Virus record (IMG/VR): IMGVR_UViG_3300028197_000003
Coordinates: 62,001 to 126,000 of that record
DNA: 64,000 nt
Source of the DNA: a virus
Strand: one strand, 5' to 3'
Of the stretch, positions 15,209 to 19,848 are shown one piece after another (position 1 is the first letter of the stretch; each line of letters opens with the position of its first letter). Made by a program: the position numbers and the translations under genes. The notes below the pieces were generated by a model. It was given only the letters and a program-made list of their open reading frames with translations. It searched no databases and had not been told where the DNA came from.

Positions 15209-15353
15209 AAACTTCTTTTGTGAAGTTGATGACGATGGAATTTTGACTTTCCCTCAAGAACTCCTTGAGAAAACTGGTTGGAAGGAAGGAGACGTGTTAG
15301 AGTGGACTCCTAATGATGATGGGTCTTTTTCTTTGAGGAAACAGAATGAGTGA
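15195..15353 (+). CDS. AbrB/SpoVT-like mini-protein (52 aa)
   Basis: The frame runs ATG 15195 to TGA 15353. The product has the swapped-hairpin AbrB pattern: EVDDDGILTFPQELLEKTGW then KEGDVLEWTPNDDGSFSLRK. In this family two such chains interleave to bind DNA. It overlaps the preceding gene by 14 bases and gp44 by eight, and the RKQNE codons of its end include the gp44 start. A related end occurs in the small gene before gp62. Roles as a regulator or a translational coupler are both possible. Confidence 0.7.
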   Translation: MSQNENFFCEVDDDGILTFPQELLEKTGWKEGDVLEWTPNDDGSFSLRKQNE

Positions 15354-16290
15354 TGAATTTCTTTGGGTCGAAAAGTATCGACCTAAAACAATTGATGAGT
15401 GCATTCTTCCCAAGTCGATAAAGACGACTTTTACGGAGTTTGTAAATAGCGGTGAGATTCCTAATCTATTGCTTTCTGGTCCACCTGGAATAGGTAAGAC
15501 GACAGTAGCAAAGGCATTATGTCTTGAACTTGGAGCTGACTGCTATGTCATCAACGGATCAGATGAAGGAAGATTCCTGGACACGGTTCGTAATAAAGCA
15601 AAGAATTTCGCTTCAACTGTTTCTCTTACGTCTGAATCTAAGCACAAGGTCATCATCATTGATGAGGCAGATAATACTACACATGATGTACAACTCCTCC
15701 TCCGAGCTAACATCGAGGCGTTTTACAACAACTGTAGGTTTATCTTCACGTGCAATTACAAGAACAAAATTATTGAACCTCTCCACAGCCGATGCGCGGT
15801 GGTCGATTTCGGAGTTACAGGGAAAGAAAAACAACTGATTGCTGCTGGTTTCTTCAAGCGGTTGACTCAGATTCTTCAGATGGAGGGTGTTGAGTATGAA
15901 CCAAAAGTTGCAGTAGAACTTATCAATAAACACTTTCCTGATTGGAGACGTGTATTGAATGAGTGTCAAAGATATGCAACTAGTGGTAGAATAGATACAG
16001 GAGTTCTAGCAGACTTTAGTAACGTACAGGTCAATGAATTAGTTTCTTATATTAGTAAGAAGCAGTACCCCAATGTGCGGAAGTGGATTGTTCAAAATTT
16101 AGATAATGATCCCAATACAATCCTTAGAAAATTGTATGACTCAATCTATGAGCATATGAAACCAAAGTCTATTCCTGAGGCGGTACTAATTATTGCAAAA
16201 TACCAGTACCAGTCTGCTTTTGCAGCAGATCAAGAGATCAATCTCTTAGCAGCAATGACAGAAATTATGGTCAACTGCGAATTCAAGTAA
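15346..16290 (+). CDS. 44: Clamp loader large subunit gp44
   Basis: The 314-residue AAA+ protein begins LWVEKYRPKTIDECILP, then Walker A GPPGIGKTT (about 45-53), Walker B VIIIDEADN (about 101-109), and the SRC arginine-finger motif HSRCAVVDF (about 149). Four gp44 plus one gp62 load the gp45 clamp. Length is close to T4 gp44 (319). In T4 gene 62 follows directly; here six other genes lie between. Confidence 0.97.
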   Translation: MSDEFLWVEKYRPKTIDECILPKSIKTTFTEFVNSGEIPNLLLSGPPGIGKTTVAKALCLELGADCYVINGSDEGRFLDTVRNKAKNFASTVSLTSESKHKVIIIDEADNTTHDVQLLLRANIEAFYNNCRFIFTCNYKNKIIEPLHSRCAVVDFGVTGKEKQLIAAGFFKRLTQILQMEGVEYEPKVAVELINKHFPDWRRVLNECQRYATSGRIDTGVLADFSNVQVNELVSYISKKQYPNVRKWIVQNLDNDPNTILRKLYDSIYEHMKPKSIPEAVLIIAKYQYQSAFAADQEINLLAAMTEIMVNCEFK

Positions 16291-16303: not shown

Positions 16304-17200
16304 ATGAAGTGTCTTGTAACAGGCGGTGCTGGATTCATCGGATCCCATATCGTTTCACGTCTTCTTCGTGATAATCATGAAGTCGTAGTCATTGATAACG
16401 AATCAGCGGAAGCAAACGATGCTTTCAACTGGTACGAGAATGACGTAGAGAACCATATCGAAGACATTCGTGACATCGAAGCATGTCGCCATATCTTCAA
16501 GGGTGTTGAGGTTGTGTTCCATTTGGCAGCACACTCTCGAATCCAATTAGCAATGGAGAATCCTTTTGATTGTGTTACCACAAACGTGGTAGGAACCTGC
16601 AACATGCTTGAACTTGCACGAGAAGTAGGTGTGAGTAGGTTTATCAATTCTTCTACTTCTTCTTCGTATGGTTTGAATAATCAACCACCTTTGATTGAGT
16701 TCATGCCTTCTGATTGTTTGAATCATTATTCAGCAAGTAAGGTATCTGCAGAGAAGTTCTGTTATATGTACTATCGTTTGCATATGTTGCGGACAGTATC
16801 TCTCCGATACTTCAACGTTTACGGTCCTCGTCAACCTTTGAAGGGACCATATGCACCGGTCATTGGTCTGTTCCAAGAACAGAAACGTCGTGGTGAACCT
16901 ATGACCATCGTTGGTGATGGTGAGCAACGTCGTGACTTCACTCACGTCGATGATGTAGTCGAGGCAAACATTTGTGCCATGAATAATTTGATTTCTATTG
17001 AATCAATCAACATTGGTACAGGAACTAATTACTCTATGAATCAAGTTGCTGACATGATTGGCGGTGATAGAGTTTATATCCCAGCACGTAAAGGAGAATC
17101 TAGAGAAACTCTTGCGGATATCTCAAGAGCTAAATCTATGCTAGGATGGGAACCTAAGATTACATTAGAGGATCAACTTACAAATCATGATCAACTTTGA
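16304..17200 (+). CDS. NAD-dependent nucleotide-sugar epimerase (GalE/WbpP-like)
   Basis: An extended short-chain dehydrogenase with the Rossmann motif VTGGAGFIGSHIV (residues 5-17), then FHLAAHSRI, a catalytic Ser in the SSTSSSYG region (about 117-124) and YSASKVSAEK (about 143) giving the Tyr-Lys pair, and RYFNVYGPRQ. The likely substrate is a UDP-hexose or its uronic/N-acetyl form; exact specificity is not readable. At 298 residues it lacks the usual last helix after GWEP, where the next gene begins. A sugar enzyme here, inside the clamp-loader operon, is unexpected. Confidence 0.88.
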   Translation: MKCLVTGGAGFIGSHIVSRLLRDNHEVVVIDNESAEANDAFNWYENDVENHIEDIRDIEACRHIFKGVEVVFHLAAHSRIQLAMENPFDCVTTNVVGTCNMLELAREVGVSRFINSSTSSSYGLNNQPPLIEFMPSDCLNHYSASKVSAEKFCYMYYRLHMLRTVSLRYFNVYGPRQPLKGPYAPVIGLFQEQKRRGEPMTIVGDGEQRRDFTHVDDVVEANICAMNNLISIESINIGTGTNYSMNQVADMIGGDRVYIPARKGESRETLADISRAKSMLGWEPKITLEDQLTNHDQL

Positions 17201-17705
17201 CAATATCAATCTTGAAGAATTTTTTGGTTGCGTTGACGCAACTAATACTCCTCAGATGAAGTCAAATACTTTCAAGACAATTCGTACATGGTTACAAGAA
17301 AATTCATTCGCTAAGTGGAGTAACGGACAAGTAGATTACGTTGGTGATTACATGGATGGTGTGGACTTCAAGTCTGCTGAACATAATTACGAGATGAAAG
17401 GAACTCTCGGTATGTTCAATAAGAATGGCAGCACCAAAAGTGTTGTGTTGAAAAACTTCCGAGGTGATGTCTCATTTGTAGATAAAACCTTTGACTACAT
17501 GCTTTTGGTGGACACTAGGAATATGTCTATCGCAGTCACTGATTGGGAAACTGTTGAGAAACGTACCTATTACACTCCATCTTCCCCTTGTGCCAAGTTC
17601 AAACTAGAACCGGGGGACTATACTATGCTGGCAGAGAACGTCACTCCTTCTACTAAAAACACTACAGCAGACGTTCTCCTCAATAACTTCCAAGACATTC
17701 TTTGA
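17187..17705 (+). CDS. PD-(D/E)xK nuclease-like protein, candidate restriction enzyme
   Basis: The 172-residue protein contains GDYMDGVDF (about 53-61) and NYEMKG (E69, K71), spaced as the D...ExK active site of PD-(D/E)xK nucleases. It continues with VVLKNFRGDVSF and FDYMLLVDTRNMSIAVTDWE, typical of the strands that follow in type II restriction enzymes. Its stop overlaps the start of a Dam-type methylase, the classical layout of a restriction-modification pair. I infer an endonuclease matched to that methylase; no family member is recognised by name, so it could be another structure-specific nuclease. Confidence 0.55.
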   Translation: MINFDNINLEEFFGCVDATNTPQMKSNTFKTIRTWLQENSFAKWSNGQVDYVGDYMDGVDFKSAEHNYEMKGTLGMFNKNGSTKSVVLKNFRGDVSFVDKTFDYMLLVDTRNMSIAVTDWETVEKRTYYTPSSPCAKFKLEPGDYTMLAENVTPSTKNTTADVLLNNFQDIL

Positions 17706-18526
17706 TGGCACTCGCCAAAACTCCTCTTCGTTATCCCGGTGGTAAATCCCGTGCAACTACACAGATCTACAATCATCTGCCTCGCCTGTCTGGTTATAGG
17801 GAGTATCGTGAATGTTTCTTGGGTGGAGGATCAATGGCGATCTTCATCACACAAAAATACCCTACCCTCCCCGTCGTCTGTAGTGACCTCTACGAACCCT
17901 TAGTCAACTTTTGGATCCATCTTCGCGACGACGGGGAAAAGATGGCAGAAGATCTTCTAAAACTAAAGCGACAGCACGACAATCATGAGTCTGCTCGTGA
18001 ACTATTCATCGAATCTAAGAGACTACTCAATGACGAATCCAATAATGACTCTTTACTGCGTGCTGTCAGTTTTTATATTATCAATAAGTGTTCTTTTTCT
18101 GGTCTCACCGAGTCGTCCTCCTTCAGCAAACAAGCAAGTGTCTCCAACTTCAGTGAACGGGGCATCATGCGACTGCCAACAACTTCCAAAATAATTCGTA
18201 ATTGGACTATCTTACATCAGTCTTACGAGAAGTTATTGGAAGGAGATGATGCTTTGGTATACCTTGACCCTCCCTATGACATCAAGGACAACTTGTATGG
18301 TAAGAAAGGTGGTATGCATAAAGGATTTGATCATGATAAGTTTGCTCGTGACTGCTGCTGGTCTAGCAACGATTGCATCATTAGTTACAACTCAGATCAA
18401 CTAGTCCAAGAACGATTTGAAAATTGGAAAGCAGCAGAGTTTGATCTTACATACACCATGAGATCAGTCGGTGAGTATATGAAGGATCAAACAAAAAGAA
18501 AAGAGTTGTTACTTATGAACTATTAG
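17705..18526 (+). CDS. dam: DNA adenine-N6 methyltransferase (Dam/D12 class)
   Basis: The 273-residue product has the D12-class motifs: LRYPGGKSR (SAM-binding motif, residues about 8-16), FLGGGSM (about 38), and YLDPPYD (about 193), the DPPY catalytic tetrapeptide for adenine N6. The start is ATG 17705, in a TGATG overlap with the nuclease-like gene; a TTG one codon earlier is possible. It could protect phage DNA from host restriction, regulate phage promoters, or protect against the neighbouring nuclease. Recognition site is not predictable with confidence; GATC is the default for Dam. Confidence 0.93.
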   Translation: MALAKTPLRYPGGKSRATTQIYNHLPRLSGYREYRECFLGGGSMAIFITQKYPTLPVVCSDLYEPLVNFWIHLRDDGEKMAEDLLKLKRQHDNHESARELFIESKRLLNDESNNDSLLRAVSFYIINKCSFSGLTESSSFSKQASVSNFSERGIMRLPTTSKIIRNWTILHQSYEKLLEGDDALVYLDPPYDIKDNLYGKKGGMHKGFDHDKFARDCCWSSNDCIISYNSDQLVQERFENWKAAEFDLTYTMRSVGEYMKDQTKRKELLLMNY

Positions 18527-19328: not shown

Positions 19329-19472
19329 ATGGAAAAACCTGCTGACTTGTGGCAAGATATGGCAACCCTCAATGCATTGTATGAGGAGTTATGCTGGGAT
19401 CCTGGAGTAGTTCTAGAATTTATTCCTGACTACGAGAACAACTGTATTATTATTCGCAAACAGAATGCCTGA
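19329..19472 (+). CDS. Small protein with AbrB-like end, upstream of gp62 (47 aa)
   Basis: The frame runs ATG 19329 to TGA 19472. The C-terminal half, WDPGVVLEFIPDYENNCIII then RKQNA, parallels the AbrB-like protein before gp44 (KEGDVLEWTPNDDGSFSLRK then QNE). Both end in RKQN codons that contain the ATG of the following clamp-loader gene. The N-terminal half lacks the usual AbrB first strand, so it may be a degenerate paralogue. It may act in translational coupling. Confidence 0.55.
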   Translation: MEKPADLWQDMATLNALYEELCWDPGVVLEFIPDYENNCIIIRKQNA

Positions 19473-19848
19473 ATTGAAGGATTGGTTGAAGTCAATCAAC
19501 GAGACTAAGACTAATCTTATTGATGAAGATCCACTCCTAGAGTCCAAGTATCTTCCCTATATTATCAATCGATGTTTGTCTGGGCATATTGACTCATTGA
19601 TGTTTGTCAATGAAATGAATATCAATCATTCTCTTGAGTATAAATTACAATACGATTTTTTACTAAATACTCTGAGATCTAAGAAGAGATTTTCTCCTTG
19701 GGTCAGAAAAGATGAGCTAGTGAATCTCCAGATTGTCAAAAAATACTATGGGTATTCTGACGATAAGGCAAAGCAAGTGCTTCCTCTTTTATCTAACGAA
19801 CAGTTAGACATTATTCGACAAAAACTTGAGACCGGAGGGTTGCAATGA
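19465..19848 (+). CDS. 62: Clamp loader small subunit gp62
   Basis: The 127-residue helical protein begins LKDWLKSINETK and has IINRCLSGHIDSLMFVNEMN (about 34-53) and KKRFSPWVRKDE, which I recognise from cyanophage gp62. It is shorter than T4 gp62 (187). It completes the gp44/62 loader; placement directly before regA matches T4. It starts inside the 3' end of the 47-aa gene and overlaps regA by four bases. Confidence 0.85.
   Translation: MPELKDWLKSINETKTNLIDEDPLLESKYLPYIINRCLSGHIDSLMFVNEMNINHSLEYKLQYDFLLNTLRSKKRFSPWVRKDELVNLQIVKKYYGYSDDKAKQVLPLLSNEQLDIIRQKLETGGLQ

Follow-up and report, generated by a model that had tools for sequence, protein, structure and literature searches.

We identified, in an uncultured T4-like phage of marine cyanobacteria (cyanophage), a candidate phage-borne and modular restriction–modification (R–M) arrangement in which a standing adenine methylase (Dam) would protect the phage DNA and an exchangeable nuclease would cut DNA that lacks the mark. 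We consider this the best explanation of the locus, with a probability of roughly 60%; cleavage, a recognition sequence shared by the two enzymes, protection by methylation and a benefit to the phage are the parts of this reading that we infer. The stretch of DNA analyzed (the window) comprises 64 kb out of a 192-kb record that also carries two photosystem reaction-centre genes, and the replication genes in the window are ordered gp45, gp44, gp62, regA and gp43.

All genes of the locus in the window are on the plus strand. The locus is a slot with two conserved borders, both clamp-loader subunits: gp44 on the left (15346..16290), recognized from cyanophage homologues annotated as gp44 and from its identity to relatives, and gp62 on the right (19465..19848), which is conserved downstream of dam in relatives. 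The first gene in the slot encodes a nucleotide-sugar epimerase (16304..17200; PF01370, 2e-56; PHROG 540), a second accessory gene that is missing from the gp44–dam slot in most relatives and whose 3′ end overlaps the start of the nuclease gene by 14 nt. The predicted nuclease (17187..17705; 172 aa) is followed by the D12-class adenine-N6 DNA methyltransferase (17705..18526), with the nuclease stop codon TGA (17703-17705) overlapping the methylase ATG at 17705 to give TGATG (17703..17707), a junction similar to that of most relatives; the ORF list also offers an alternative methylase start, TTG at 17702, one codon before the ATG. The original prediction had described such a 172-aa ORF, with E69-x-K71 and an upstream aspartate, coupled through TGATG to a D12 methylase inside the clamp-loader operon, and the sequence, in which the upstream acid is D60, the PF02086 match and the neighboring genes (gp44 and the epimerase on the left; gp62, regA and gp43 on the right) confirm this layout. 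Overlaps of a few bases are frequent in the operon (15195/15208, 19845/19848, 20755/20792, 21555/21558 and 21821/21824), and the TGATG overlap alone is therefore weak evidence of pairing.

The 172-aa protein matched no family in Pfam, PHROGs, NCBIfam or PADLOC and had no credible match among PDB sequences, sequenced phages or plasmids; weak matches to toxin-repeat chains and Enterococcus plasmids were set aside as chance. Its own subfamily (F1) had no credible relatives among sequenced phage records. Relatives were found among the uncultured viruses of IMG/VR, 39 of them by single-sequence search and 213 by profile search, and an AlphaFold2 model computed from an alignment of 25 relatives reached a pLDDT of 86 and a pTM of 0.83. 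In the model, E69xK71 lies on a strand (residues 67-73) and D60 just ahead of a short strand, which places the conserved residues of the protein where the PD-(D/E)xK fold requires them. The top PDB matches from Foldseek were Eco15I-N, NhoI and DpnI, with E-values of 1e-3 to 1e-2 for Eco15I-N and NhoI. VIA-align 2 returned 3ndh, a restriction endonuclease with substrate DNA that we take to be ThaI (Z 9.4; 3.7 Å over 151 residues), along with DpnI (Z 9.1), Eco15I (8.8), NhoI (8.6), NaeI (8.4) and, at about 5, PvuII and EcoRV. Matches to PD-(D/E)xK enzymes span 112–151 residues. The Z values are individually modest, as are all structural E-values, and restriction enzymes head the list; the best matches include modification-dependent enzymes (DpnI, NhoI and Eco15I). 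The model and its structural neighbors thus point to a restriction-type nuclease fold rather than a non-nuclease one, and together with the IMG/VR relatives they suggest a predicted endonuclease of the PD-(D/E)xK superfamily.

A PD-(D/E)xK protein encoded beside Dam could also resemble MutH and, instead of restricting DNA, nick newly made DNA according to its Dam methylation, in the service of repair or the control of replication: MutH is itself a PD-(D/E)xK enzyme that works with Dam, the gene shares the replication operon with Dam and a MutH structure (2aoq, Z 5.1) appears in the structural list, while no Pfam profile matched the protein. However, the 2aoq match is within the background and below several restriction enzymes, and a housekeeping role predicts wide conservation, yet F1 is found in none of the sequenced phage records. 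We therefore regard a MutH-like role as very unlikely.

The putative catalytic residues are those expected of a PD-(D/E)xK enzyme. Glu38 (codon 17298-17300), Asp60 (GAC, 17364..17366; the D of D...ExK) and the ExK residues Glu69-Met-Lys71 (17391..17399; Glu69, GAG at 17391-17393; Lys71, AAA at 17397-17399) were followed through the family, and E38, D60, E69 and K71 are invariant in all members that cover them (93 in F1, 17 in F2, 10 in F3 and 6 in F4). The same four residues are kept in the homologues of phages S-SM1 and S-SCSM1, and E69 and K71 were never lost in any homologue covering them across the four subfamilies.

F2 (26 loci), F3 (18) and F4 (6) are further subfamilies from follow-up searches, distant from F1 with profile-comparison E-values of 3e-15, 2e-5 (probability 76) and 3e-20, respectively. 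The link between F3 and F1 is based on profile comparison and a match in a viral structure library, and the F3 structure prediction itself had a pLDDT of 46. The best match in the library was E3SI79 of S-SM1 (TM 0.71), probably the product of SSM1_072, an S-SM1 gene whose protein is 51% identical to F3.

Linkage to D12 methylases recurs across these subfamilies. We fetched 95 F1 loci, 81 of which were informative (at least 900 nt downstream). Here, dam starts no more than 60 nt downstream of the nuclease in 70 of the 81 and 76 have a D12 methylase no farther than 1 kb away in either direction, with the caveat that many contigs are near-duplicates and the counts represent non-independent events. 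In the further subfamilies, dam abuts the nuclease at −13 to +5 nt in all 25 readable F2 loci, 16 of 17 readable F3 loci and all 6 F4 loci; one F3 locus has dam 446 nt away. Conversely, among 68 dam loci surveyed, which were selected for resemblance to the methylase of the window, a family member lies directly upstream in 13 and a member of a further subfamily in 3. Within T4-like phages, a shared location can stem from common descent and recombination and not from function. Outside them, six contigs from other phages (L089-L092, L097 and L098) carry a D12 methylase ~50–80 nt upstream of the F1 gene that is only ~20% identical to that of the window over 130 residues, and a contig from a metagenome-assembled genome (MAG; L100), with a nuclease 36% identical, has yet another D12 methylase 449 nt downstream. 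These three arrangements with three different D12 methylases make a single inherited location a hard explanation. In two of the contigs with the upstream methylase (L089:4547-5952 and L097:4055-5436), a PHROG 2400 ORF overlaps that methylase; by eye it resembles EcoRI-type enzymes (EGKKQQDRGNAIER), and this methylase may thus have two endonuclease partners.

The linkage is not universal. No D12 methylase lies near the F1 gene in five contigs (L015, L030, L049, L076 and L078), and neither of the two cultured homologues, from S-SM1 (F3) and S-SCSM1 (distant), adjoins dam. Two of the five (L030 and L015) have N6_N4-type methylase genes a few kilobases from F1, and in a third, T4-like contig, a DruA-family ORF (PF14236; L049:1568-2638) takes the place of dam beside the nuclease. 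In the remaining two (L076:3190-4535 and L078), a 178-aa ORF stands directly before a methylase-like ORF (269 aa, NPPF motif), and the two form another candidate pair, ~1.5–2.8 kb upstream of the F1 gene. That the N6_N4-type methylases, the methylase-like ORF of L076 or the DruA ORF are substitute partners is speculation. Such loci are what one would expect of a nuclease for host DNA breakdown, or of some other methylase-independent function, whose adjacency to dam would reflect an insertion hotspot and compact operons; few-base overlaps being the rule in the operon also agrees with this. However, the consistent abutment of dam in four subfamilies and the association with a second D12 methylase elsewhere argue against a methylase-independent function, which we consider unlikely. 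Nor is the gene spread among many phages without a methylase, given that a nearby D12 methylase was missing in 5 of the 81 informative loci.

The methylase matches PF02086 (MethyltransfD12) at 3e-27 and 96.4 bits, against a curated cut-off of 22, and PHROG 56 (DNA methyltransferase) at 4e-82, its DPPY motif is invariant in the alignment, and similar solved structures include 7m6b (E 4.5e-45) and DpnM (2dpm). Of 50,697 sequenced phage records, 431 contain it (429 over at least 80% of the query), and almost all of these are cyanophages; in the cyanophages inspected it also lies between gp44 and gp62; its presence in so many records at the same place identifies it as a long-standing phage gene and not a recent arrival with the nuclease. 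Because these sequenced cyanophages carry Dam without the F1 nuclease, Dam has another role too. In S-PM2, both the annotation of dam (L044:3561-4339) and its match are split in two, and the gene may be broken in the isolate or in the record. GATC as the Dam recognition sequence is a guess by analogy to distant relatives such as DpnM. The window contains 376 GATC sites compared with 381 expected under a trinucleotide model and 299 under dinucleotide shuffles, and composition near the expected count does not reveal the Dam site. In the S-RIM8 stretches read, 26 GATC were found versus 224 expected, although dam is present.

The original prediction of an R–M pair therefore stands in part. The restriction-type fold, the invariant residues and the recurrent D12 linkage, which in other phages extends to a highly dissimilar D12 methylase, speak for it; as an inserted unit it fails, since the methylase occurs in 431 phage records and the family of the 172-aa protein in none, and the slot also holds homing-type nucleases. 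Only the nuclease is an accessory gene, not the methylase. Elsewhere (L155, L173, L181 and, in S-SM1, L101:10734-11186, SSM1_158) the gp44–dam interval holds ORFs classed by eye as NUMOD/HNH-like, LAGLIDADG-like or HNH, and these varied nuclease ORFs indicate a hotspot for nucleases of several kinds. Near a helicase gene (T4-GC 36), cyanophages have another site at which adenine methylase or nuclease-like genes recur, as in P-SSM7 (L260:37440-41438), S-RIM8 (L261:32243-35043) and S-SM1 (L257:42275-44034), and the F3 homologue SSM1_072 of S-SM1 is located there.

A hotspot of this kind would also suit a free-standing homing endonuclease that resides in the gp44–dam interval and propagates through cleavage of phages without it. 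The structural matches include a homing enzyme of the PD-(D/E)xK type, I-Ssp6803I (Z 6.3), though it ranks below the restriction enzymes and the 172-aa protein matched no homing-family profile in Pfam. The two genes are, moreover, not strictly co-inherited. While nuclease and dam identities correlate (r 0.66), in 30 pairs of loci the nucleases are >93% identical and the dams <75%, with the reverse pattern in no pair; for L006/L010, the nucleases are 96% identical and the dams 64%. The nuclease is thus kept while the adjacent dam allele differs, a pattern anticipated where dams of one specificity are interchangeable and one that also fits an independently moving nuclease. Against homing, synonymous divergence between L006 and L010 is high (dS ~0.8), which rules against a recent sweep, and a fixed homing site does not account for the F1 genes that neighbor a highly dissimilar D12 methylase in other phages. 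Homing genes usually decay, yet there are no decayed copies among complete F1 loci: every copy that is not truncated at the edge of its contig reads as a single open frame, including the most distant (L100), and the nuclease, with a median dN/dS of 0.08 (dam, 0.09), is under strong purifying selection. We judge homing decidedly unlikely.

The 190 kb of this genome that we examined (window 1-64000 plus the G000 stretches L250-L256) contain no TTAA, where ~690 would be expected, and every other 4-mer occurs there; AGTACT, TTCGAA, GACGTC, GTCGAC, CTCGAG and GGCGCC are likewise missing. Close relatives (L001-L008, L010, L011, L013, L045-L048 and L050) lack TTAA as well, and other lineages with the same nuclease family do have it. 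Either host restriction or some nuclease of the phage itself could be the cause. Cleavage of TTAA by the F1 nuclease, escaped by a phage genome devoid of that sequence, was rejected as a rule for the whole family: TTAA is present at ordinary frequency in other F1 genomes, among them L009, although L009 and the TTAA-free L010 have closely similar nucleases. A shared missing site of any kind was likewise rejected, since each 4- or 6-bp palindrome occurs in at least one of the sampled F1 genomes; this also counts against a methylase-independent nuclease, for which self-avoidance of one fixed site needs such a palindrome. Separately, CCGG is absent from the stretches of all four cyanophages S-SM1 (L257, L101 and L258), S-PM2 (L259), P-SSM7 (L260/L042) and S-RIM8 (L261/L043), as are GTAC in S-SM1 and CGCG and GCGC in P-SSM7.

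Under the R–M reading, Dam would methylate the phage DNA made in every infection, and incoming and replicating phage DNA would carry the mark on at least one strand, having been marked in the previous cell and being hemimethylated while replicating. The 172-aa enzyme, translated just upstream of Dam and coupled to it, would cut the same sequence when unmarked, with the host chromosome and/or co-infecting phages as targets. The endonuclease would be an exchangeable accessory in a hypervariable slot upstream of dam that at least four diverged subfamilies use. From the recurrence of the nuclease–Dam pairing in uncultured viruses, it seems that lytic viruses mark the DNA they make and attack unmarked DNA, whether from the host or from rivals. 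More tentatively, Dam may serve T4-like cyanophages in general as a standing immunity mark, with the upstream slot alternating between undescribed PD-(D/E)xK subfamilies directed against unmarked host or co-infecting DNA. The orphan Dam genes of T4-like cyanophages would be half of an offensive system if the nuclease cuts Dam-unmarked DNA; if so, lytic phage competition in ocean microbes would be directly testable via two small genes. A further outcome is a previously undescribed family of small, restriction-like enzymes, divided among uncultured phages into four or more subfamilies.

The arrangement resembles type II R–M systems with a D12 methylase (DpnII/MboI type) in having adjacent PD-(D/E)xK endonuclease and D12 genes in one direction with an overlapping stop and start. 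It differs in that the endonuclease has no sequence similarity to any annotated family and its activity is predicted, the methylase belongs to a replication operon and is widespread among phages, with the endonuclease exchanged separately, and no regulator gene was seen. Chloroviruses and marseilleviruses carry working R–M pairs proposed to attack host or rival DNA (PMC7253447), and a virus-borne R–M pair has been described for a deep-sea temperate phage and its host (PMC10734518). As in the chlorovirus and marseillevirus systems (CviAI; the melbournevirus GATC system), a single virus would have both activities and methylate its own DNA, here as predicted from its genes; those are eukaryotic viruses, whereas ours is a tailed phage whose methylase gene lies inside an operon and whose endonuclease belongs to a family without annotated members. 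In the Mom–REase fusions of jumbo phages, an adenine modification is predicted to protect phage DNA and a REase-fold domain to attack other DNA (PMC7824862); there the two are fused in one protein and the modification is different, whereas here a methylase and separate genes are involved, and in the relative L049 a DruA-family ORF replaces dam. The orphan Dam of T4-like cyanophages is the same gene in the same operon, in >400 phage records, without this endonuclease family. We found no description of the nuclease–Dam pair in the literature searched, which does not prove that none exists. Virus-borne R–M pairs are already known (PMC7253447, PMC10734518); what differs here is an undescribed enzyme family and a standing methylase with a changeable nuclease slot.
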